Of a stretch of DNA of 64,000 bases, positions 51,400-63,184 are shown piece by piece. Every line of letters starts with the position of its first letter. Position 1 is the first letter of the stretch. Location of the stretch: positions 1,860,001 to 1,924,000 of the forward strand of contig NZ_BAAAWN010000001.1 in assembly GCF_039535095.1 (NCBI RefSeq). Direction: 5' to 3'. The notes under the pieces were generated by a model. It was given only the letters and a program-made list of their open reading frames with translations, ran no database searches and was not told the origin of the DNA. Source of the DNA: Arthrobacter ramosus. Lineage in GTDB: Bacteria; Actinomycetota; Actinomycetes; Actinomycetales; Micrococcaceae. Made by a program: the position numbers and the translations under genes.

Positions 51400-52803
51400 A
51401 TGGCAACAACCACCCGGAAACAGGCAACGATGCGCAAGACCCCCGGAAAAGCCGCCCTCGCGTCGTTCCTCGGTAGCACCCTCGAGTATTACGACTTCTT
51501 CATCTACGGCTCTGCGGCCGCGCTGGTCTTCGGACCTCTGTTCTTTCCCTCCGATGATCCCGCCGTCGGCCTGATCGGCGCCTTTGCTACCTTCGGCGTC
51601 GCTTACATCGCACGCCCGGTGGGAGGACTCGTTATGGGCCATTTCGGCGACAAAATGGGAAGGAAGAAGATCCTGCTCATCACCCTCGGCGTCATGGGCC
51701 TGTCTTCGCTCGGCATCGGCTTCCTGCCGAGCTACAGCCAGATCGGGTACTGGGCGCCGGTCCTTCTGGTTGCCGGTCGCCTGGCTCAGGGCTTCTCTGC
51801 CGGGGCTGAGTCCGCCGGAGCATCGACGCTGACACTGGAACACTCGCCGGAAGGCCGCCGCGGGTTCTTTACCAGCTTCGTGATGACCGGGTACGCCTCC
51901 GGCATGGTCCTCGCCACGCTGGTCTTCATTCCGGTCGCGGCACTGCCCCACGACGCACTCATGAGCTGGGGGTGGAGGATCCCCTTCTGGCTGTCGATTG
52001 TGGTCCTGGCCATCGCCTACTGGGTCCGCACCCATCTGGATGAGACGCCCGTCTTCGAAGACGCCAAGGAGAAGGACGCGGTGGCTTCCTTGCCGATCCG
52101 CGATGTGCTCAAGTTCCAGTCCATGGACGTGGTGCGCGTCATTGGGATGTCAGTCATGTCGGTCATGCAGACCATCTTCACCGTTTTCGGTTTGGCCTAT
52201 GCCACGGGAGCGGCCGGCTTCGACAAGACGGCAATCCTTACTGTGAATGCCGTGGCGATCGGACTGTCAATGTTCGCCATGCCCCTCGTCGCGAGGCTGT
52301 CGGACAAAGTGGGGCGGCGACCATTGCTCCTGACCGCAGCCATTGGATGCTCGGCCACGATCTTTGCCTACTTCTGGGCGCTGTCCACCGGCAGCATCTG
52401 GTTGGTCTTCGCCGCGGCCTTCGTGAACATGACACTGCTCTACTCATGCTTCAACGGCATCTGGCCCTCATTCTTCGCCGAACTGTTCGCGGCCCCCGTT
52501 CGATACTCCGGCATGGCCATCGGCAACCAGCTGGGACTGGTGGTGGCAGGCTTCGGTCCGCTGATCGCCGGCCTGCTGCTCGGCAAAGGCGCTGACGGCT
52601 GGGTGCCCGTGGCGGTGTTCGCGTGTGCCTGCATGGCTATTGCCGCTGTCTGCGTGGTTTTGTCGAGGGAAACGGCGAAAACGCCGACTGAGGAGCTGGG
52701 CGCGCCCTACCTGCGGGGCATGGCCATCCGGGCATCCCAAAGCCATGGCAGCGGCTACGCCTCCAGCGTCCTCCGCACGAAGTCCGCGCTCGGCCGTGAA
52801 TAG
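51400..52803 (+). CDS. MFS transporter, metabolite:H+ symporter (MHS) family
   Basis: A 467-residue permease with 12 helices. The MHS pattern is clear: LASFLGSTLEYYDFFIYGSA in TM1, GVAYIARPVGGLVMGHFGDK and MGRKKILLITLGVMGLSSLG (signature loop 2-3), AGRLAQGFSAGAESAGASTL in TM4-5, and RLSDKVGRRPLLLTAAIGCS in loop 8-9. MHS proteins import carboxylates, shikimate or betaines with protons. It faces the kynurenine operon, and its 3' end overlaps the PaaX-type gene by 49 bases, so an anthranilate or tryptophan-derived substrate is possible but unproven. ATG at 51400 follows CAAGGAGAAA. Confidence 0.9.
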   Translation: MATTTRKQATMRKTPGKAALASFLGSTLEYYDFFIYGSAAALVFGPLFFPSDDPAVGLIGAFATFGVAYIARPVGGLVMGHFGDKMGRKKILLITLGVMGLSSLGIGFLPSYSQIGYWAPVLLVAGRLAQGFSAGAESAGASTLTLEHSPEGRRGFFTSFVMTGYASGMVLATLVFIPVAALPHDALMSWGWRIPFWLSIVVLAIAYWVRTHLDETPVFEDAKEKDAVASLPIRDVLKFQSMDVVRVIGMSVMSVMQTIFTVFGLAYATGAAGFDKTAILTVNAVAIGLSMFAMPLVARLSDKVGRRPLLLTAAIGCSATIFAYFWALSTGSIWLVFAAAFVNMTLLYSCFNGIWPSFFAELFAAPVRYSGMAIGNQLGLVVAGFGPLIAGLLLGKGADGWVPVAVFACACMAIAAVCVVLSRETAKTPTEELGAPYLRGMAIRASQSHGSGYASSVLRTKSALGRE

Positions 52804-53645
52804 GCGGCCCCGAGGCGCTCGAACAAGGCGATTCCCGTCGTGCCGGGCCAATCTTTGGGAAGAAGCTCCGCCGGCAGCCCCGGATCCAGATACGGAATGA
52901 TCCGCCAGCGGTCGATGCATCGGACATAACGGGCGAACGTTTCGGCCGTGGCCTCGGGAGAGGCTCCCATCAGCTGGTGAGCATCACCCGGGCCGCCGTC
53001 GGAACCGTTACCCGGGCCGCCGTCGTCGGCCGCTGAACCATAATGCCTGATGAAGTCGCGATGCAGTTCTGCCACGGCCTCCAGGTCCCACCATGCGGAT
53101 GCGGCATCGCGGAGGCTGCCGCCGACCAAGGGAGTGTCCGTGACGAACACCGTGGCCATGCCGCGCAGCTTCAGGTCCTCCAGGATCTCCTCCACTTCCT
53201 CCCGAAGCGAATCCGGGCAGATCCACAGCCCTGCTGCCACCGTGCCGCATCCAATCCAGTGCAATCTCCGACGCAATTGGTGCCGCTTTTCCCGCTCCGT
53301 TTCCGGAATGGAAAAGGACACGAGGCACCAGCGGTCCGCGGACGACATAAGGCGGGGGTTGAAAATCCGCCGGTCGCCGCGGGCAAGCATCGCTGCGGCG
53401 CCCTCGGTAACCGCGAAGCCGGGAACACCGTGACGCACTTGCGGAAGGACGATTTCCTTCTTCTTCAACCGTGACAAGGCCGTCCGGGAAACGGCCGCGG
53501 TCAGCCCAAGAGCCTCCATGAGGGCGATGATGTGCCTCGTGGACATCCATCCACCGGCATCGCGCAGATACAAGCCGATGACCGTGCGCAGCAATGACGT
53601 GGTACTCCCGGGCCGGGAGTCCATGTCGTCGAGGACAGCGCTCAC
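52755..53645 (-). CDS. PaaX-family transcriptional regulator of the kynurenine operon
   Basis: A 296-residue regulator. The N-terminal winged-helix (LLRTVIGLYLRDAGGWMSTR; LMEALGLTAAVSRTALSRLK) and the PaaX-like sensor region (RRIFNPRLMSSADRWCLVSF; LRRRLHWIGCGTVAAGLWIC) with a C-terminal WRIIPYLDPGLPAELLPKDW match PaaX and related repressors, whose effectors are often acyl-CoA or aromatic intermediates. It is the last gene of the kynA-kynU-paaX operon (GTGA overlap with kynU), so it probably autoregulates the operon; the palindrome at 55826-55853 is the candidate operator. GTG start at 53645. Its 3' end overlaps the MHS gene on the other strand. Confidence 0.88.
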   Translation of the reverse strand: MSAVLDDMDSRPGSTTSLLRTVIGLYLRDAGGWMSTRHIIALMEALGLTAAVSRTALSRLKKKEIVLPQVRHGVPGFAVTEGAAAMLARGDRRIFNPRLMSSADRWCLVSFSIPETEREKRHQLRRRLHWIGCGTVAAGLWICPDSLREEVEEILEDLKLRGMATVFVTDTPLVGGSLRDAASAWWDLEAVAELHRDFIRHYGSAADDGGPGNGSDGGPGDAHQLMGASPEATAETFARYVRCIDRWRIIPYLDPGLPAELLPKDWPGTTGIALFERLGAAYSRPSADFVRRTLEA

Positions 53646-54880
53646 AGGAGTTCGGTGAGGGCGTCCCGGATGGCGGTCACTCCCAGCTCAACCTCCGCGT
53701 AGCTGGTGCTGAGCGGCGAGAGGCCGATCCGCAGTCCGTGCGGCGGACGGAAATCCGGAATGACACCCCTTTCCCACAGCGTCTGGGTCACCTCGCCGAA
53801 CAGGGGATGGTCCACCGTGATGTGCGAGCCACGCTCCGCGGTGTTGCGAGGGCTGACAATCTCGACGCCCAGGGGGACCAGCATGTCCTCAGCCAAGGCA
53901 ACTGCGTACTCAGTGAGCTTGACGGACTTTTCCCGCACGGCGTCCATGCCCACTGATGCGATCAGCTCGACCATGTCCTTGAGCGGCTGCATGGCCAACA
54001 CCGGGGGAGTGCCGGTGATGAAGCTTCGGATCCCCTTTGCCGGCTTGTAGCTTTCCGTCATGCCGAAGGGGTTGTCAGCGCCCATCCAGCCCCAAATAGG
54101 CTGTTGCAGACGGTCCTGCTGCGAAGCGTTGACGTAAGCGAACGCGGGAGAGCCCGGGCCGCCATTGAGGTACTTGTACGTGCAACCCACTGCGAGGTCC
54201 ACGCCCCATGCGTCCAACTCGAGGGGAACCGAGCCTACGGAATGGCACAGGTCCCAAAGCATGAGCGCGCCGGTTTCCTTGACCATTGCGGTGATCGCCG
54301 CGGCATCCGCCAGGAAACCGGAACGGTAAGCCACGTGGCTGAGAACGACGACGGCCGTCCGCTCGCTGATCAGTCCCTCGAGGTCCGTGGTCCGGACGCC
54401 GCTGGCCGGGTTGGAGGCGACCCACTTGATTGTGGCACCCTTTTCCGCGGCGATGCCCTCGATGATGAAACGGTCCGTGGGGAAATTGTCCCGGTCCACA
54501 ACAATCTCATCGCGGCCGGGCTGGGCGTCAACCGCTGCCCGGATGAGCTTGTAGAGCATCACGGACGTGGAATCTCCCACGGTGACCTGGCCGGCGGCGG
54601 CGCCCAGGGTGACGACGCCGATCCGGTCGCCCACCGTGATGGGCTCGTCCATCCACTGTTCGTCCCAGCCGCGGATGAGGCGGCTGCCCCAGGCATCCTC
54701 GACGAAGGACGCAAGCTTCGCCGACGTCGCCTTGAGCGGACGGCCGAGCGAGTTCCCGTCGAGGTAAGCGGTGAGTTGACCGCCTCCCGGGGAGTAAAAG
54801 GCCTCACGCTGCTCGGCGAGGGGATCTGCGGCGTCGAGTTCTGCCGACGTCGGCCGTTGCGTTTGCTGCGTGCTGTTCAT
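53642..54880 (-). CDS. kynU: Kynureninase
   Basis: PLP-dependent enzyme of 412 residues that converts L-kynurenine to anthranilate and alanine. Features: AYLDGNSLGRPLKATSAKLA, the substrate-entry RLIRGWDEQWMDEPI, VGDSTSVMLYKLIRAAVDAQ, WDLCHSVGSVPLELDAWGVD before the PLP lysine in VGCTYKYLNGGPG, and GWMGADNPFGM. Length and order match bacterial KynU. ATG at 54880 follows GAGGAGAG. Transcribed with kynA upstream and the PaaX-type regulator downstream. Confidence 0.95.
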   Translation of the reverse strand: MNSTQQTQRPTSAELDAADPLAEQREAFYSPGGGQLTAYLDGNSLGRPLKATSAKLASFVEDAWGSRLIRGWDEQWMDEPITVGDRIGVVTLGAAAGQVTVGDSTSVMLYKLIRAAVDAQPGRDEIVVDRDNFPTDRFIIEGIAAEKGATIKWVASNPASGVRTTDLEGLISERTAVVVLSHVAYRSGFLADAAAITAMVKETGALMLWDLCHSVGSVPLELDAWGVDLAVGCTYKYLNGGPGSPAFAYVNASQQDRLQQPIWGWMGADNPFGMTESYKPAKGIRSFITGTPPVLAMQPLKDMVELIASVGMDAVREKSVKLTEYAVALAEDMLVPLGVEIVSPRNTAERGSHITVDHPLFGEVTQTLWERGVIPDFRPPHGLRIGLSPLSTSYAEVELGVTAIRDALTELL

Positions 54881-54927
54881 GTCTCTCCTCAAGGAAGCTG
54901 ATGGGGTTGCTGGGGCTGGATTGCTGT

Positions 54928-55812
54928 TCAGTTGCCGATCTCGGTGCGGACGGCGTAGAGCTCGGGGAAAAAGGTCAGGTCAAGGGCCCGCTTGAGGAAG
55001 TCGACGCCCGAGGAGCCGCCCGTACCTACTTTGAATCCGATGGTCCGTTGCACCGTACGCAAGTGGCGGAAGCGCCACGCGTGGAAGTTGTCCTCGATGT
55101 CCACGAGGTCTTCGCAAGCCTCGTAGAAACCCCAGGGCGTGGCTTCCGATTCGTAGATCTCCTGGAAGACCGGGACGAGGTCCTTCCGGAACGTCCACGG
55201 TTCGCTCGTGTCACGTTCCAGGATTTCGGCGGCAACGGCATAACCGGCCCGGGCCAGCACCGCGAGGAAGGCGTCGTAAAGGGTCGGCTCCTCCAGGAGC
55301 GTGCTGAGCTGGCTGTGCGCCGCCGGATCGCTCTCGAAAACCCGGAGCATGTCCCGGTTCTTGTTGCCCAGCAGGAACTCAACGGCGCGGTACTGATGGG
55401 ACTGGAAGCCTGACGAGCTGCCCAGGAAGCGCCGGAATTCGGAGTACTCGCGCGGAGTGAGGGTGCCCAGGACAGACCACTGCTCGGTCATGGTCCGCTG
55501 GATCGCCTTGACGCGTGCGATGCATTTGAGGGCTTTGGCAAGGTTGTCCGCATCAAGGAGCCGGCGGGCTTCAAGGAGTTCATGCAGGACGAGCTTGAGC
55601 CACAGTTCGCTGGTCTGGTGCTGGATGATGAACAGCAATTCGTCATGGTGTTCCGGGGTGCTCAACGGGTGCTGGGAGGTGAGGAGGCGGTCAAGGTCCA
55701 GATAACCGCCGTAGGACATGGCCTGGCTGAAGTCGGTGCGGACCGAATCCTCGATGGGCCTGATGTTTTGGGCCCTGATGTTCTCTTCGGAGTGGCCGGT
55801 GCGGTTTTCCAT
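54928..55812 (-). CDS. kynA: Tryptophan 2,3-dioxygenase
   Basis: Heme enzyme of 294 residues that opens the indole ring of tryptophan to N-formylkynurenine. Motifs: MSYGGYLDLDRLLTSQHPLS, HHDELLFIIQHQTSELWLKL (substrate-contacting His/Arg region), FRRFLGSSSGFQSHQYRAVE and the C-terminal RHLRTVQRTIGFKVGTGGSS with the distal ligand region. No kynB (formamidase) is present in the operon, so that step must be supplied from elsewhere. No ribosome binding site precedes the ATG at 55812, and the promoter lies so close that the mRNA is probably leaderless. Confidence 0.95.
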   Translation of the reverse strand: MENRTGHSEENIRAQNIRPIEDSVRTDFSQAMSYGGYLDLDRLLTSQHPLSTPEHHDELLFIIQHQTSELWLKLVLHELLEARRLLDADNLAKALKCIARVKAIQRTMTEQWSVLGTLTPREYSEFRRFLGSSSGFQSHQYRAVEFLLGNKNRDMLRVFESDPAAHSQLSTLLEEPTLYDAFLAVLARAGYAVAAEILERDTSEPWTFRKDLVPVFQEIYESEATPWGFYEACEDLVDIEDNFHAWRFRHLRTVQRTIGFKVGTGGSSGVDFLKRALDLTFFPELYAVRTEIGN

Positions 55813-55978: not shown

Positions 55979-56033
55979 ATGTACCAGCAGACAGTCAGCA
56001 TCCGGGATGTACCAGCAGACAGTCAGCATCCGG
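55979..56033 (+). repeat. 28-bp tandem duplication at the aspartokinase start
   Basis: The unit atgtaccagcagacagtcag + catccggg occurs twice in tandem (start positions 55979 and 56007), 27 of 28 bases identical. Each copy begins with an ATG. Because 28 is not a multiple of three, the copies are read in different frames. Confidence 0.9.
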
Positions 56034-57460
56034 AGGTGGACGGACCAGAACGCTTCCCCGGTCTCGAACAGATGGCGCTACGTACGCGTACAAAACTTCG
56101 GGCCCGGGACCTCATAGTGCAGAAATACGGGGGCTCCTCCGTGGCTGATGCAGCGGCCATCAAACGAGTGGCCCGGCGGATCGCTGAGACCCGGGAGGCC
56201 GGACATCCGCTGGTGGTCGTGGTCTCGGCCATGGGCGACACCACTGACGAACTGCTTGACCTGGCCGTGTCCCTCAGCCCCAGTCCTCCCGCCGGCGAAC
56301 TTGACACGTTGCTGACAACGGGTGAACGGATCTCCGTGACGGCCTTGGCGATTGCGTTGGCCGACCTGGGTGTTCCTTCCCGCACCTTCAGCGGAAAAAA
56401 GGCCGGACTGATAACCGATGGCATCCACGGCAAGGCGCACATTGTCAACGTTGACCCGCACCATATCCGCGCTTGCCTGAAGCGCGAAGAAATTGCCATC
56501 GTCGCCGGGTTCCAGGGAAAGGGCCTCAAGAAGAAAGAGGTCACCACCCTTGGCCGGGGCGGTTCGGACATCACGGCCGTCGCCTTGGCCGCCGCGCTGG
56601 GCGCCGGAATGTGCGAAATCTATACCGACGTCGATGGTGTGTATACCGCTGACCCGCGGGTCGTTCCCCGCGCGCGGAAAATCGACGTCATTTCAAACGA
56701 GGAAATGCTGGAGCTGGCTGCGTCCGGTTCCAAAGTCGTGCATGCCAGATCCCTTGAGTATGCCGGCCGTTTTGGCGTCCCCATCCACGTGCGCTCCTCC
56801 TTCAACCGGGGTATTGGAACCTTGATCCTCCCAGGCCGGGACCAGGAGGCGGAATGGGACCACAAGCCGGTCTGGGAACGAGCTCCGGCCGTTGAGCAGC
56901 CCGTGGTCTCTGCAGTTCTCTGCGACAAGTCCGTGGCGAAGCTGACGTTAATAGGCGTCGCGGACGGCGTGGGAAAGTCCGCAGAAATCTTCGGGCTTCT
57001 TGCCGATGAGCGCGCCCAGGTTGAGATGGCCGTTCAAAACACCTCGTCCGCGCGCGCCGGCGGGAGCGACATTTCGCTGGCGGTTCCTGACCGGGACGGA
57101 TTCCGTGTCCGCGCCGCCCTGTCCGCTGCACAGGTGGCCATCGGCTTCGTGGACCTCCAGTACGACGGCCAGATCGGCAGGCTGTCGCTGATCGGTCTGG
57201 GCATGCGCACTGACGCGCAGGTCTTTTCGCGGCTCTTCAAGGCCCTTTCGGATGCCGGAGCCGAGATCGAGTTGATCTCGGCGTCGGACGTGCGCATCGA
57301 CGTTGCAGTTCGCGCGGCCGTGCTCGAGGACGCACAGCGCGCCGTGCGCTTGGCCTTCGGACTGGACCACCCAGGACAGGACCAGGCGGGACTGAACCAT
57401 GCAGGACTGAACCATGCAGGACTGAACCAGTCAGGAGAGGAGGCCACCAAAGCGCCGTAG
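55979..57460 (+). CDS. Aspartate kinase with repeat-bearing termini
   Basis: ATP-dependent enzyme phosphorylating aspartate, first step to aspartate semialdehyde. The kinase domain starts near residue 44 (LIVQKYGGSSVADAAAIKRV) and includes VVVSAMGDTTDELLDLAVSL, LLTTGERISVTALAIAL, GRGGSDITAVALAAALGAGM and YTDVDGVYTADPRVVPRARK; two ACT domains follow (KLTLIGVADGVGKSAEIFGL; GRLSLIGLGMRTDAQVFSRL, IELISASDVRIDVAV). ATG 55979 has AGGAGG 5 bases before it; ATG 56072 (MALRTRTKLR) is an alternative nearer the usual length (about 420). The start carries a 28-bp tandem duplication and the C terminus pentapeptide repeats. It leads the putative polymer cluster. Confidence 0.88.
   Translation: MYQQTVSIRDVPADSQHPEVDGPERFPGLEQMALRTRTKLRARDLIVQKYGGSSVADAAAIKRVARRIAETREAGHPLVVVVSAMGDTTDELLDLAVSLSPSPPAGELDTLLTTGERISVTALAIALADLGVPSRTFSGKKAGLITDGIHGKAHIVNVDPHHIRACLKREEIAIVAGFQGKGLKKKEVTTLGRGGSDITAVALAAALGAGMCEIYTDVDGVYTADPRVVPRARKIDVISNEEMLELAASGSKVVHARSLEYAGRFGVPIHVRSSFNRGIGTLILPGRDQEAEWDHKPVWERAPAVEQPVVSAVLCDKSVAKLTLIGVADGVGKSAEIFGLLADERAQVEMAVQNTSSARAGGSDISLAVPDRDGFRVRAALSAAQVAIGFVDLQYDGQIGRLSLIGLGMRTDAQVFSRLFKALSDAGAEIELISASDVRIDVAVRAAVLEDAQRAVRLAFGLDHPGQDQAGLNHAGLNHAGLNQSGEEATKAP
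57374..57433 (+). repeat. 15-bp tandem repeats at the aspartokinase C terminus
   Basis: Four in-frame 15-base units (ggactgaaccatgca and variants) encode GQDQA-GLNHA-GLNHA-GLNQS just before the end of the protein. Two units are identical. Confidence 0.85.
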
Positions 57461-57531
57461 CGGGGCCGCAGCACCTGCACCCCATCCTCCCCGCGTCGCC
57501 TAGGCACGGCCGCGGGAAGCGCTCAATCATT

Positions 57532-57549
57532 GATCCGCCTCCGCGGATC
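57532..57549 (+). promoter_or_regulatory. Short inverted repeat before the aminotransferase gene
   Basis: GATCCGC and GCGGATC with a 4-base loop, 24-41 bases upstream of the aminotransferase ATG. Could be a leader hairpin or a weak attenuator between the two genes; no U-run follows. Confidence 0.25.
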
Positions 57550-57572
57550 CCCGGGATAAGGACCCGATCGCC

Positions 57573-58973
57573 ATGAACACTCTCCCGCAGCAGACTACCT
57601 TGACCTCGGCACATGTAACCGGGCCCCTCCCGGGACCCAGGTCCGCCGAGTTGCTGGCGCACCAGGAACTCAACGAATCCAATGCCCGCACCTATCCGCG
57701 GCATCTCCCCATCGCGATTGCCGAGGGCTCCGGAGCCTTTGTGCGGGACGTCGATAACAATGTCTTCATTGATTTCCTGGCCGGAGCCGGCGTTTTGTCC
57801 CTCGGGCATAGCCATCCGGAACTGGTGGAGGTCGTCGCCGCTCAACTGCGGAGCTTGAGCCATGGACTTGATTTCCCGACGCCGGCGAAGGACGCCTTCA
57901 CGACGGCGCAGCTGTCCATGCTTCCCTGGGGACTCGCCGATCGGATGAAGATCCATTTCTGCGGACCGACCGGTGCAAATGCCGTGGATGCTGCCGTCAA
58001 ATTGTGCAAGACGGCCACCGGGCGCGGGGACATCGTGTGCTTCCAAGGAGCATTCCACGGCAGCAGCGCCATGGGGATGGCGTTGACCGGACTGGTTGAA
58101 CAGAAGCAGCCGGTGGCGAACGGAATGCCCGGAGTGCACTTCTTCCCATACTCCTACTGTGCTCAGTGTCCCCTAGGCCTGCACCCGGAGACCTGTTCGA
58201 CCAACTGTGTCCAATTCCTCGAACATTCCCTCAAAGACCCGCTCGGGGGCATTCCGCTTCCCGCGGCCGTCATCATGGAAATGGTCCAAGGCGAGGGAGG
58301 AGTTGTACCGGCCACCGCAGAATTCGCGCGAACCGTGCGCAGGGTGACCCGTGAGCTGGGCATCCCGTTGATTATCGATGAGATCCAGACCGGGTGCGGG
58401 CGCACCGGAACGTGGTTCGCGTTCGAGCAGTACGGGATCGAGCCGGATGTCATCGTCGCATCCAAGGCCCTCAGTGGAATAGGCCTCCCCGTTGCCCTGA
58501 TCATCTACAACAAGGACCTTGACCGCTGGCTCCCCGGCGCCCACACCGGAACATTCCGCGGAAACCAGCTGGCATTCGCCGCAGGGGCCGCAGCAGTGGA
58601 GATCTTCCGGCGCGACGACGTTCTCGGCAACGTCCGTAGCCGCGGTGCGCAGATTGCCGGGCTTCTCGCACCCCTGGTCGGCAACCCGTGGGTGCGCGAG
58701 GTGCGGGGCCGGGGCCTGATGTGGGGGATCGAGTTCGCCGATCCGGAAACCGGCCGCCCTGCCGGGGACCTGGCCCGGGCAGTGCAGCGAAATGCCCTGG
58801 AGCTGGGCCTGATACTCGAATGCGGCGGCCGGGACGACTGCGTGGTCAGGCTCCTGCCTCCGCTGAACATCACGGAAGAACTCGTCAATACCGCCTGCGG
58901 GCTCCTTCTGGCTGCCATTGCGGAACAAAGTTCCGTCGCAGGACACAGGACCACGACAGGGGCGGTCCGATAG
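57573..58973 (+). CDS. Diaminobutyrate-2-oxoglutarate aminotransferase family protein (Dat-type)
   Basis: Class-III PLP aminotransferase of 466 residues. Features: RTYPRHLPIAIAEGSGAFVR, NVFIDFLAGAGVLSLGHSHP, IHFCGPTGANAVDAAVKLCK (substrate/PLP phosphate loop), CFQGAFHGSSAMGMALTGLV, IIDEIQTGCGRTGTWFAFEQ with the catalytic Asp, and VIVASKALSGIGLPVALIIY with PLP Lys298. Sequence pattern matches L-2,4-diaminobutyrate transaminases (Dat), which convert aspartate semialdehyde to diaminobutyrate. It is longer than EctB (about 420) and no ectA/ectC or diaminobutyrate decarboxylase is adjacent. It follows aspartokinase by 112 bases and precedes the Pls-like synthetase by 41 bases. AAGGAC lies before ATG 57573. 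Confidence 0.88.
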   Translation: MNTLPQQTTLTSAHVTGPLPGPRSAELLAHQELNESNARTYPRHLPIAIAEGSGAFVRDVDNNVFIDFLAGAGVLSLGHSHPELVEVVAAQLRSLSHGLDFPTPAKDAFTTAQLSMLPWGLADRMKIHFCGPTGANAVDAAVKLCKTATGRGDIVCFQGAFHGSSAMGMALTGLVEQKQPVANGMPGVHFFPYSYCAQCPLGLHPETCSTNCVQFLEHSLKDPLGGIPLPAAVIMEMVQGEGGVVPATAEFARTVRRVTRELGIPLIIDEIQTGCGRTGTWFAFEQYGIEPDVIVASKALSGIGLPVALIIYNKDLDRWLPGAHTGTFRGNQLAFAAGAAAVEIFRRDDVLGNVRSRGAQIAGLLAPLVGNPWVREVRGRGLMWGIEFADPETGRPAGDLARAVQRNALELGLILECGGRDDCVVRLLPPLNITEELVNTACGLLLAAIAEQSSVAGHRTTTGAVR

Positions 58974-59014
58974 GGCCCGCCGGCCGGGCACAAAGCCAGG
59001 ACAAGGAGGCGAAC

Positions 59015-62000
59015 ATGGGAAGGCATGTGGACCCAGGCCGGACCCCGGGCGGATCGGCCACAAGCCCCGGATCCATGATCCAGCTCAGGGACGGTGCCCC
59101 GGTCCTGGTCGGCACCGCACTGGGCAACGCGGGACCGGGCAACCCGGCACTGGGCAACCCGGCACTGGGCAATACCATCCGGTGGAGCCCCGGCGAGCGG
59201 CTTGAGGAGCTCTTCGAGAACCGGTGCGACCGGCAACGGGCCGAAGGCCACCGCCGTCATCCTGCCGTGGAAACGGCGGATGGTTCGCTCAGCTACGGAG
59301 AACTGGACGCCCGGGCCAATAGGCTCGCCCGCTACCTTCTTGCCCGCGGGGTAAGCCCCGGCGACAGAATCGCACTGCTCTTCGAGGACCCGGTGCGGTC
59401 CTACGTCGGCATGCTTGCGGTCCTCAAGGCCCACGCCGTCTACGTGCCCCTCGACCCGGCGTTCCCTCCCGAGAGAATTTCCTATATAGCCGCAGACGCC
59501 GGCGTCACCATGCTCCTGACTGTCTCCCGCCTCGCGGACAGCCTCCTGCCCGGGACCGCGGACTTGGCCATTCGCGTGGACAAGGAGGACCACCGCATTG
59601 CCGCGTTTGAACCCTCCCGCTTGGCTTGGGCGGGGCAGACGTCCCCGGCCAACGGACTGGCCTACATCATCTACACTTCAGGATCCACCGGACGGCCCAA
59701 GGGAGTGGCCATCGCCCACGCCAGCATTTGCCACTTCGTGCGCATTGCCGCCGAAACCTATGGCTACGATTCCCGGGACCGGGTCTACCAAGGCATGACC
59801 ACGGCTTTCGATTTCTCCGTGGAGGAGATCTGGGTGCCTTGGATGGTCGGGGCCACCTTGGTGCCCCGGCCGCCCGGGAACAACCTCCTCGGGCCGGATC
59901 TTGCCGAGTTCATCGAGGCCCGGAACATCACCGCCCTTTGCTGTGTGCCGACCCTGCTCGCCACGCTCGACGACGACGTGCCCGGGCTGCGGTTCCTGCT
60001 CGTCTCAGGTGAAGCCTGCCCGGAGGACCTTGTGAAGCGTTGGCACCGGCCCGGCCGGCGTTTCCTGAATGTCTACGGGCCCACCGAAGCGACGGTGACA
60101 GCCACCTGGGGAACGGCGGAGCCCGGCAAGCCCGTGACCCTGGGCAAACCGTTGCCCGGCTATTCGGCGGTCATCCTGGATCCCGTCCAGGACCGTGCAC
60201 TGCCTCGCGGCGAGCTGGGCGAAATCGGACTGGCGGGCGTCGGGCTCGCCCGGGGCTACATCAACCGGCCCGAACTCACAGAAAAGGCGTTCATTCCCGA
60301 TTTCCTGGGCCTGGAGGACAACCCGTCCCATCGCATTTACCGCACCGGTGACCTCGGCCGGTTCAACGACCACGACGAAATCGAGTACCACGGCCGCACC
60401 GACACGCAGGTGAAGGTCCGGGGCTATCGGATTGAGCTCAGCGAAATCGAAAGTGTCCTCCTGCAGATGCCCGGGATAGCGATGGCAGTTGTGAAGACGT
60501 GGGAGCCCGGGCCGGGAACCACGGAACTCGCCGCCTATTACACGCTGCACCAGGACGCACCCAGGGTGCAAGGAAGCGACATCCGCGCCTGGCTGCGCGA
60601 GCGGCTCCCCGCCTACATGGTGCCGGGCTATTTCCAGCCCCTCCGGACCATGCCGATGATGGTCAGCGGGAAAGTGGACCGCAGCAGGCTTCCACATCCC
60701 ACTGGCCCCCGCGCGGTCAGTACAGACGTCGCAGACACCAGGCCGATGACGCCGACGGAACGGATCCTCGCCCCGGCTTTGGCTGCCGCCCTCCAGCTCA
60801 CCTCAGTCTCCACCACCGCCAATTTCTTCAACGACCTCGGGGCAAACTCCCTGCTGCTGGCTCATTTCTGCGCCAACGTCCGCAAGGAAGCCGACCCACC
60901 CTCAGTCTCGATGCGCGAAATCTATGCACATCCGACCATCGCCGCCTTGGCGGCCGCCCTGGACGCAGCGAACGACGAGGCGCTGGCGGGGGCCGACGCC
61001 GGGGGCGCGGAAACTGCGGTGGCGGAACCCTTCCTGCGCGTTGGGACCGGCCAGTACCTGCTGTGCGGGGCCTTGCAGGCAATGGCCGCCCTGGCCTACG
61101 CGTACGTGGCGTTGCTCATCCCCGTGGCCGGCGAGCAGTGGATCGGCGGGTCCCGGCAGCCCGGCGACCTCGTGATGCGCTCCGTCGTCGTCGGCGCCGT
61201 GTCGTTCCTGGCCTTGGCAGTCCTACCCGTTGTGCTCAAATGGGCGCTCATCGGCCGATGGAAGACCGGGGACTTCCCTCTCTGGTCCTTAAAGTACGTC
61301 CGCTTCTGGTTCGTCAAGAGCTTGGTCAATACAAGCCCCGTCCGAATGTTCGTCGGGACGCCGGTCTTTCCCCTCTACCTCAAAGCGCTGGGGGCCAGGA
61401 TCGGCCCCCGGGTAACCATCCTCTCCTCAAGGATTCCCGCCTGCCCCGACCTGCTGACTGTAGGGGCGGACACGGTGATCCGAAAGGACTCCGCCTTCTA
61501 CTGCTACCGTGCCCACGGCGGCCGGATCCAAACAGGGCCAGTCACCCTCGGCCGCAACGTCCTGATTGGTGAGCAGGCCACACTGGACATAGACACCGCG
61601 ATGGGCGACGACGCCCAACTGGGGCATAGCTCCTCCTTGCACCGCTTCCAGAGCGTTCCCCCGGGCTCCGCCTGGAATGGCTCACCGGCCCAACCCGCCG
61701 GCACCAACTACCGGCTGGACGGACACGCCATCAGCGGCACGCGCAGCCGGGTCAGCTTTGGTTTCTGGACGGTCGTGAACCATGTGGTGCTCGTGTCGTC
61801 CCTCGGAATCGGAGCCATTGACATCCTGCTCGCCTCCCTTCCCACCGGCGACACAAACCCTGCCCGGCCCGGATTCTGGGGCGCACTTCTGCTGGTCTCG
61901 TTCGTCGTTCTCTTCGGCAGCATCCTGGCCGCCTTCGCCCTCGTCGCCACCCTTCCCAGGCTGCTGGCATTGTTCCTGGTCCCTGGGCAGGACTATCCGC

Positions 62001-63184
62001 TCTATGGCCCCCGGTTCGGACTCCTGCGGACCATTCAGCGGCTGACAAACCTCAAGTCACTCCTCCAACTCACGGGGGACAGTTCCCTGATCGTGCACTA
62101 CTTGAATGTCCTGGGCTACCACCAGCCGGACATGGTGCAGACCGGATCCAATTTCGGCGTCGGGCTGAAGCACGACAGCCCCACGCTGGCGACGGTCGGC
62201 AGCGGCACCATGGTCTCCGACGGTCTATCCATCATCAACGCCGACTATTCAAACACCGCGTTCCGCCTCTCGCCTGCCGTCATTGGGGCCAGGAGCTTCT
62301 TCGGCAACAACATCGCCTATCCCGCCGGAGCCAGGGTGGGCGACAACTGCCTCCTGGGCACCAAGACCATGGTGCCTTTGGAAGGTCCGCTCCGTGAGGG
62401 GGTGGGCCTCCTGGGCTCTCCACCCTTTGAAATCCCGCGCACAGTAGACCGCGACAGTGCCTTCGACCGGTTCAGGACGGCGGAGGAATTGCGGCGGCGG
62501 ATCCCGGCAAAGAACCGGCACAATGCTGTGACGCTGCTCCTCTACCTGCTGGGCCGCTGGGTTGAGCTCTACGTGATTCTCCTGGCCGCCTGGGCATCGC
62601 AGGCCTTCCTCCCTGCGGCAGGAGGCCTCGGAGCCCTGGCCGGGTTGGGAACAATGGTCATCACCACCAACGCCCTGGCAGTCCTGGTGGAGCGGGCATC
62701 CCTCCGCTTCGGAAGACTTTCACCGCTCTTCTGCTCCATCTACGAAGTGCCCTTCTGGCGGCATGAGCGCTTCTGGAAGCTCAGCGCCGGGGGCATCGTG
62801 CAAATGTTCAACGGGACACCGTTCAAACCCGTGATCTGGCGCATGTTGGGGATCCGGATGGGCAAGAAGGTCTTCGACGACGGTTGCGGGATCCCCGAAA
62901 GGACCCTCGTCACCATCGGGGACTATTGCACCCTCAATGTCCACTCCGGCGTGCAGTGCCATTCCATGGAGGACGGCGCGTTCAAACTCGACGCCATCAC
63001 GCTTGGTCCCGGCTGCACCCTTGGAGTAGGCGCATTCGTCCACTATGGAACCACCCTGCACGAAGGTTCCCAGCTCGAAGCCGACTCGTTCCTGATGAAG
63101 GGCGAAGACGTCCCCGCCCACAGCATCTTCGGCGGCAATCCCGCACGCGAACTCACCCGGCAAGCCGTCCCCGGACTGCCCTGA
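59015..63184 (+). CDS. Pls-type non-ribosomal peptide synthetase (A-T-membrane-embedded polymerase)
   Basis: A 1389-residue synthetase. Adenylation domain (about 50-580): A3 YTSGSTGRPKG at Tyr220, A4 FDFSVEEIW, A5 YGPTEA at Tyr354, A7 YRTGDLGR, A8 GRTDTQVKVRGYRIE, A10 Lys553 in SGKVDRS. Carrier domain with 4'-phosphopantetheine Ser612 (DLGANSLLL). From about 680, six predicted helices in three pairs (about 683-750, 912-985, 1170-1230) alternate with three soluble domains. Left-handed-helix-like hexapeptide stretches (VTLGRNVLIGEQATLDIDTA; IGARSFFGNNIAYPAGARVG; ITLGPGCTLGVGAFVHYGTT) lie in these. No condensation or thioesterase domain. This is the layout of epsilon-poly-lysine synthetase. ATG 59015 follows AAGGAGG. 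Confidence 0.93.
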   Translation: MGRHVDPGRTPGGSATSPGSMIQLRDGAPVLVGTALGNAGPGNPALGNPALGNTIRWSPGERLEELFENRCDRQRAEGHRRHPAVETADGSLSYGELDARANRLARYLLARGVSPGDRIALLFEDPVRSYVGMLAVLKAHAVYVPLDPAFPPERISYIAADAGVTMLLTVSRLADSLLPGTADLAIRVDKEDHRIAAFEPSRLAWAGQTSPANGLAYIIYTSGSTGRPKGVAIAHASICHFVRIAAETYGYDSRDRVYQGMTTAFDFSVEEIWVPWMVGATLVPRPPGNNLLGPDLAEFIEARNITALCCVPTLLATLDDDVPGLRFLLVSGEACPEDLVKRWHRPGRRFLNVYGPTEATVTATWGTAEPGKPVTLGKPLPGYSAVILDPVQDRALPRGELGEIGLAGVGLARGYINRPELTEKAFIPDFLGLEDNPSHRIYRTGDLGRFNDHDEIEYHGRTDTQVKVRGYRIELSEIESVLLQMPGIAMAVVKTWEPGPGTTELAAYYTLHQDAPRVQGSDIRAWLRERLPAYMVPGYFQPLRTMPMMVSGKVDRSRLPHPTGPRAVSTDVADTRPMTPTERILAPALAAALQLTSVSTTANFFNDLGANSLLLAHFCANVRKEADPPSVSMREIYAHPTIAALAAALDAANDEALAGADAGGAETAVAEPFLRVGTGQYLLCGALQAMAALAYAYVALLIPVAGEQWIGGSRQPGDLVMRSVVVGAVSFLALAVLPVVLKWALIGRWKTGDFPLWSLKYVRFWFVKSLVNTSPVRMFVGTPVFPLYLKALGARIGPRVTILSSRIPACPDLLTVGADTVIRKDSAFYCYRAHGGRIQTGPVTLGRNVLIGEQATLDIDTAMGDDAQLGHSSSLHRFQSVPPGSAWNGSPAQPAGTNYRLDGHAISGTRSRVSFGFWTVVNHVVLVSSLGIGAIDILLASLPTGDTNPARPGFWGALLLVSFVVLFGSILAAFALVATLPRLLALFLVPGQDYPLYGPRFGLLRTIQRLTNLKSLLQLTGDSSLIVHYLNVLGYHQPDMVQTGSNFGVGLKHDSPTLATVGSGTMVSDGLSIINADYSNTAFRLSPAVIGARSFFGNNIAYPAGARVGDNCLLGTKTMVPLEGPLREGVGLLGSPPFEIPRTVDRDSAFDRFRTAEELRRRIPAKNRHNAVTLLLYLLGRWVELYVILLAAWASQAFLPAAGGLGALAGLGTMVITTNALAVLVERASLRFGRLSPLFCSIYEVPFWRHERFWKLSAGGIVQMFNGTPFKPVIWRMLGIRMGKKVFDDGCGIPERTLVTIGDYCTLNVHSGVQCHSMEDGAFKLDAITLGPGCTLGVGAFVHYGTTLHEGSQLEADSFLMKGEDVPAHSIFGGNPARELTRQAVPGLP
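59123..59167 (+). repeat. 15-bp tandem repeats near the synthetase N terminus
   Basis: Three in-frame 15-base units (ggcaacgcgggaccg, then ggcaacccggcactg twice) encode GNAGP-GNPAL-GNPAL in the linker before the adenylation domain. Confidence 0.85.

Follow-up and report, generated by a model that had tools for sequence, protein, structure and literature searches.

A probable poly-diaminobutyrate operon with a linked aspartokinase and aminotransferase in Arthrobacter ramosus

A gene cluster for a gamma-poly-L-2,4-diaminobutyrate synthetase, pldA-dat-ask, was reportedly described by Yamanaka et al. in 2020. The gene context of synthetases for polymers of L-2,4-diaminobutyrate (Dab) includes pldA, dat and ask (PMC8117764; here and below, the cited papers are represented by parts of their text). 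The gamma-poly-D-Dab cluster pddA-D of Streptoalloteichus hindustanus encodes a pathway-specific transaminase (PddC) and an aspartate kinase (PddD), and its PddB is only weakly similar to DapF (PMC8225329). In this study we analysed a 64,000-nucleotide stretch of the Arthrobacter ramosus genome (contig NZ_BAAAWN010000001.1, positions 1,860,001 to 1,924,000; the window), which carries an operon of an aspartokinase gene (ask), a diaminobutyrate aminotransferase gene (dat) and a gene for a membrane synthetase of the Pls/PosA family.

The window operon belongs to this published pathway type. It has the same three gene functions and the same synthetase family as pldA-dat-ask; the host family differs, and the comparison covers gene functions. 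As in pddA-D, a synthetase stands with a pathway-specific transaminase and an aspartate kinase, and the window operon has no PddB racemase gene. The epsilon-poly-L-lysine synthetase Pls, described with the peptidase PldII, has the same domain layout as the window enzyme; a peptidase in an operon with Pls is a described gene context (PMC8117764). The delta-poly-L-ornithine synthetase PosA shares the family, the domain order and Asp1/Glu3 of the adenylation code, but has Met2 where the window enzyme has Phe2 (PMC10522769). The synthetase of poly-2,3-diaminopropionate (PDAP) from Streptomyces albulus PD-1 is of the same family and is given Phe2 (PMC10522769), but its monomer is 2,3-diaminopropionate (Dap), made by NjxA/NjxB (PMC4668381), whereas the window enzyme is flanked by Ask and Dat. 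The sequence-only reading had taken a dedicated Dab supply in an Arthrobacter-type genome as new, and this has to be narrowed. The Dat plus Ask pathway type is in print for Streptomyces and Streptoalloteichus, Arthrobacter-type genomes already carry generic epsilon-poly-lysine-like or NAPAA annotations (PMC12025171, PMC11078813), and lysine-type Pls homologues are known from them (PMC8117764). In the open-access literature covered, mostly titles and beginnings of abstracts plus parts of some papers, no poly-Dab cluster in Arthrobacter was described.

The three genes lie head to tail in a 5.25 Mb single-contig genome (completeness 99.98), with 112 bases between ask and dat and 41 bases between dat and the synthetase gene:

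55979-57460 (open reading frame (ORF) also given from 55958), + strand: ask, pathway-linked aspartate kinase, second copy in the genome; start at 55979 or 56072
57573-58973, + strand: dat, L-2,4-diaminobutyrate--2-oxoglutarate aminotransferase, Dat lineage, not EctB lineage
59015-63184, + strand: single-module membrane nonribosomal peptide synthetase of the Pls/PosA family, 1389 residues (adenylation domain, carrier domain, terminal polymerising region); proposed gamma-poly-L-Dab synthetase

All three ORFs are intact and their products score above the cut-offs of their family models, which bears out the earlier recognition of an aspartokinase, a Dat and a Pls-type synthetase on one strand. In the proposed pathway, the pathway-specific aspartokinase would raise flux to aspartyl phosphate, which Asd would convert to aspartate semialdehyde. 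Dat would transaminate the semialdehyde to L-Dab, and the membrane synthetase would activate L-Dab with ATP, load it onto the carrier domain and join the units iteratively in its terminal region. The single Asd found is encoded away from the operon (asd_gamma 574.7 bits, cut-off 402.9). Of the three-gene pathway first proposed, the gene identities were confirmed and the dedicated Dab supply was supported, and the middle enzyme has to come from elsewhere in the genome.

The synthetase and its conserved neighbours

The synthetase matched the Pls/PosA C-terminal domain model TIGR02353 with 674.8 bits (cut-off 423.1) and the adenylation domain model TIGR01733 with 401 bits (cut-off 317.4). Pfam matches in the operon proteins were AMP-binding, AMP-binding_C, PP-binding, Aminotran_3 and AA_kinase; no classical condensation or thioesterase domain was among the Pfam matches of the synthetase. 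All of its parts lie in one chain:

59234-60691 (approximate; residues 74-559), + strand: adenylation domain with C-terminal subdomain (Pfam and TIGR profile matches)
60779-60961 (residues 589-649), + strand: phosphopantetheine carrier domain (motif DLGANSLL)
61064-63145 (residues 684-1377), + strand: Pls/PosA terminal polymerising region (TIGR02353)

The terminal region has roughly 690 residues, and a simple hydropathy scan gave about six hydrophobic or membrane segments (near residues 682-708, 717-750, 917-945, 952-992, 1171-1193 and 1198-1226). The nearest named relatives of the enzyme are called Arthrobacter (at least 82% identical; the five nearest loci 83-90%).

The ten specificity positions, mapped through motifs and numbered as in gramicidin synthetase, read DFECLSVVTK. 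Asp1 and Glu3 are conserved in Pls/PosA-type enzymes, and position 2 tracks chain length: Phe in the synthetases of PDAP and poly-diaminobutyrate (PDAB), Met in the ornithine enzyme PosA and Ala in lysine enzymes (PMC10522769). The window enzyme has Asp1, Phe2 and Glu3, the pattern of Dab/Dap synthetases, and lacks the Ala2 of the lysine type. Its family score and its pocket, which sets it apart from lysine and ornithine enzymes, both agree with the synthetase type first read from the sequence. The ten positions and the carrier Ser612 were invariant in a 15-sequence alignment including the window enzyme. The same ten-residue code was found in 74 of 80 synthetases (the window and 79 further loci), a constancy that is partly due to selection, since the scan patterns cover two code positions and the best matches were kept.

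These 79 loci came from a scan with the 15-sequence alignment. Of the 242 encoding stretches it detected, the 80 best were retained, and each locus was taken with flanks of at most 10 kb per side, shorter where a contig ended. Flanking ORFs of at least 120 residues were clustered, and 40 clusters were listed. A Dat-family ORF occurred in the flanks of 60 of the 79 loci (on the synthetase's strand in 56 of these) and an Ask in 36, always on the synthetase's strand. Among the listed clusters no other sense-strand family occurred in more than 10 of the 79 loci: the other large clusters run antisense over Dat or Ask, judged from the printed representative, and the remaining ones were listed in at most 10 loci each. 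Dat was absent from 18 loci (16 also without Ask, 2 with Ask), several of which end near the gene.

The control set consisted of 20 lysine-type Pls loci of the same genus, taken from the 22 with the highest scores by skipping two; one locus, L139, is truncated by a contig end. Their codes are DAESIGTVVK (16) and DAESIGTVIK (4). None of the 20 had an Ask and none had a Dat, except for one aminotransferase match in L158 (32% identical, 145 bits); an M1 peptidase was present in 16. Of 150 genomes sampled within the genus, 19, counting that of the window, carry a full-length synthetase at least 53% identical to the window enzyme.

Two aminotransferase lineages and a drifted aspartokinase

The window Dat scored 425.1 bits against TIGR00709 (cut-off 401.6) and stayed below the EctB cut-off (351.8 against 552.2 bits). 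Among the 60 loci with a Dat-family ORF, 38 have the Dat type (68-95% identical to the window Dat) and 22 an EctB type (35-39%). All three EctB-type enzymes tested exceeded the EctB cut-off (634.0, 607.2 and 627.2 bits). The type switches at least 8 times on the synthetase tree, a quick tree with some unresolved forks on which recruitment and replacement look alike. Because aminotransferases of different lineages but the same reaction stand beside one synthetase family, we regard this as the strongest genomic argument for a Dab monomer. In Pseudonocardia sp. N23 (L060) a single ORF of 2048 residues encodes the synthetase with Dat joined to its C terminus, and in L050 a piece of Dat lies at the contig end.

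The window Ask scored 364.8 bits against TIGR00657 (cut-off 208.7) and 448.2 against NF005155 (cut-off 346). The genome holds two Asks, 56% identical, the other copy about 2.5 Mb away; at least two Ask matches were also found in each of 16 further genomes searched. We compared Asks linked to the synthetase with unlinked ones at eight regulatory positions in Corynebacterium glutamicum LysC numbering (274, 277, 279, 299, 301, 308, 374 and 380), several of which are known sites of feedback-resistant mutations. Every one of the 17 unlinked Asks retains all eight residues; none of the 37 linked ones does, the window's included. The median ratio of ACT to catalytic identity was 0.55 for linked and 0.78 for unlinked Asks.

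The same drift was seen at positions invariant among the unlinked Asks and LysC. Linked Asks keep 86% of 108 such positions in the catalytic domain and 46% of 41 in the ACT region, which is partly covered in some of them (0.60 in L042 and L047); the window Ask keeps 94 of the 108 and 27 of the 41. Copies identical to linked Asks were omitted from the unlinked set, as was L122, which lies in the L056 genome and matches the Ask linked to the synthetase in L065. On a catalytic-domain tree at least three changes separate linked from unlinked Asks. These results suggested that the linked aspartokinase is probably released from lysine/threonine feedback.

The likely product and its alternatives

Taken together, our results make it very likely that the operon makes a cationic isopeptide, with gamma-poly-L-Dab as the foremost candidate. 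The pocket, the neighbours at 79 loci, the Dat fusion, the two Dat lineages, the lysine-type control and the Ask drift together speak for a dedicated Dab supply. They support the product first proposed, whose identity stays, as before, a matter of prediction. Gene content, domains, pocket residues, the conserved neighbourhood and the loss of regulatory residues are read directly from the DNA. From them we infer what the enzymes catalyse, that the linked Ask is insensitive to feedback and that the genes are transcribed together, and, for the polymer, the gamma linkage, the L configuration, the chain length, export and an antimicrobial role.

Several points weigh against this reading. The case is built on sequence evidence. 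The adenylation code alone does not separate Dab from Dap, and the synthetase was placed in its family by profile matches. The locus set was drawn from close relatives of the window, with patterns covering two code positions. Sixteen of the 79 loci have no separate dat or ask ORF, and in 11 of these both flanks are longer than 7 kb; linked supply genes are therefore not obligatory, and at those 11 loci any such genes would lie elsewhere. The choice of the eight Ask residues followed an initial inspection of the data, so that the counts over 108 and 41 positions are the fairer measure. The 112-base gap between ask and dat is long enough to hold a dat promoter of its own.

The rest of the genome was searched for other uses of Dab, since EctB and Dat enzymes normally serve ectoine, siderophore and diaminopropane pathways. 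The ectoine synthase profile PF06339 had no match in the genome, where the named controls gave no match either, and the same profile matched in 21 of 80 family genomes. IucA/IucC was not found in the genome, in a search restricted to this siderophore type whose control matched in 2 of 14. Two decarboxylases dependent on pyridoxal phosphate are encoded elsewhere: one is a glutamate decarboxylase (TIGR01788 626.5 bits, cut-off 380.4), and the other reached 90.8 bits against the 900-bit cut-off of the RhbB-type diaminobutyrate decarboxylase. The search for DapF-family genes gave a single one, a 322-residue ORF near 3.193 Mb, about 1.27 Mb from the operon. The lack of an ectoine synthase, IucA/IucC or a second DapF-family gene in these searches points to gamma-poly-L-Dab. 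Ectoine, an IucA/IucC siderophore and diaminopropane were thus rejected or left unsupported as the purpose of Dat. The absence of such pathways, claimed earlier from the window, held across the genome for ectoine synthase and the decarboxylases, and for siderophores as far as IucA/IucC goes; a Dat homologue serving another local pathway, named at the time among the things that would overturn the proposal, did not come to light in these searches.

Of the alternatives, a silent or decayed operon that makes nothing survives best, and we consider it unlikely. A related locus is broken in its assembly (L138, genome G053, 79% complete: ask, aminotransferase and synthetase split over several frames, by decay or sequencing error), and the Corynebacterium variabile Pls, although functional in Streptomyces, yielded no product in its native host (PMC8117764). 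In the window, on the other hand, all three ORFs are intact, the code and the carrier Ser are those invariant in the alignment, and the Ask retains most of the catalytic-domain positions counted above.

Synthesis of beta-poly-L-2,3-diaminopropionate, or of a polymer mixing Dab and Dap, with the adjacent Dat serving something else, is distinctly unlikely. Phe2 is common to PDAP and PDAB synthetases, and the adenylation domain of the PDAP synthetase also activated Dab in vitro, less than Dap (PMC4668381). Nevertheless, Dat is a recurrent neighbour of synthetases of this family and in one case shares an ORF with the synthetase. By eye, without a profile scan of the flanks, nothing like SbnA/SbnB was noticed among the ORFs listed at 50-64 kb, and elsewhere in the genus SbnA/SbnB occur with a synthetase of another, split kind.

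Very unlikely, in our view, is gamma-poly-D-Dab as in Streptoalloteichus hindustanus, even though that cluster has the same supply pair, PddC and PddD (PMC8225329). No PddB-like racemase gene was seen beside the three genes, and since only one, distant DapF-family gene was found, a route via PddB is improbable; a very divergent racemase could escape the genome search. That Dat and Ask supply ectoine, a siderophore or diaminopropane, as such enzymes normally do, and adjoin the synthetase by chance is highly improbable, given the genome searches above, in which neither decarboxylase reached the curated diaminobutyrate decarboxylase model, and a neighbourhood kept across many genera.

Wider occurrence, related loci and minor features

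If the operon makes gamma-poly-L-Dab as proposed, dedicated poly-Dab operons, known from a small number of Streptomyces-like producers, would occur in many genera of actinobacteria. A Phe2 code together with Dat/EctB and a drifted Ask would be a usable rule for picking probable poly-Dab clusters out of automatic epsilon-poly-lysine-like annotations. The linked Asks would form a natural, possibly feedback-resistant aspartokinase set for amino-acid engineering. We give an even chance to the broader picture, in which poly-Dab is widespread in soil actinobacteria, its supply was repeatedly assembled from different aminotransferases and several feedback-released aspartokinase lineages beside one synthetase family, and a single branched aspartate pathway feeds two cationic polymers in the host, poly-Dab and epsilon-poly-lysine.

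The genome has a second synthetase (3161641-3165405), to which the window enzyme is about 31% identical, with another pocket and with Dat and Ask in place of the peptidase. Its code is DAESIGTVVK (Ala2), it matches the adenylation domain of the solved epsilon-poly-lysine synthetase 7wew with 639.9 bits, and an M1 peptidase gene follows it (L097:13465-18887, genome positions 3161464-3166886). This is likely an epsilon-poly-lysine locus in the same organism. An aminotransferase match near it, first taken as another Dat, is probably argD: by eye it lies between argR-like and argB-like ORFs.

A different, split operon was observed in other genomes of the genus, at L133:5044-13999 and, similarly, in L132 and L134-L137 (genomes G116; G089, G132, G140, G061, G046). 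Profiles were run on L133, and the others were judged by eye. L133 encodes SbnA (TIGR03945 393.9 bits, cut-off 349.95), SbnB (399.8, cut-off 326.9) and a Pls/PosA terminal half (TIGR02353 668.2, cut-off 423.1), which lacks an adenylation domain and contains three carrier domains in tandem. Also present are a TauD-family dioxygenase and a separate protein that combines an adenylation and a carrier domain; its code, computed for four loci, is DIWQCTTDDK or DIWQSTADDK. This arrangement looks like a trans-activated split synthetase for a diaminopropionate polymer.

Some synthetases carry about 270-340 extra C-terminal residues resembling a fused Sfp-type phosphopantetheinyl transferase (L061, L021, L068, L071, L074 and L078; P0068, P0085 and P0117). 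Against PF01648 (cut-off 25), L021 scored above (49.6) and L061 below (21.4); P0068, P0085 and P0117 have precomputed matches, and the others were judged by length or eye. On a Pseudonocardia contig (L080:2321-17542), three consecutive synthetase-like ORFs were found, the last cut by the contig end.

Upstream of the operon, at 51400-55812, lie what by eye are presumably an MFS transporter, a PaaX-like regulator, a kynureninase and a tryptophan 2,3-dioxygenase, the last three on the opposite strand; no connection of these genes to the operon was noticed by eye. A promoter and terminator scan did no better than shuffles (promoter-like 0 versus a mean of 1.0; terminator-like 3 versus a mean of 5.3). 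The synthetase ORF is open from 58688, and its ATG at 59015 is preceded by AAGGAGG. For ask, the ATG at 55979 is preceded by AGGAGG, and a further in-frame ATG lies at 56072. A perfect 28-base tandem duplication at 55979-56033 contains the likely ask start codon; as 28 cannot be divided by 3, the ATG in the second copy is out of frame. Tandem repeats of 15 bases at 57359-57436 and 59117-59172 encode Asn/Gly-containing pentapeptide repeats at the Ask C terminus and near the synthetase N terminus.

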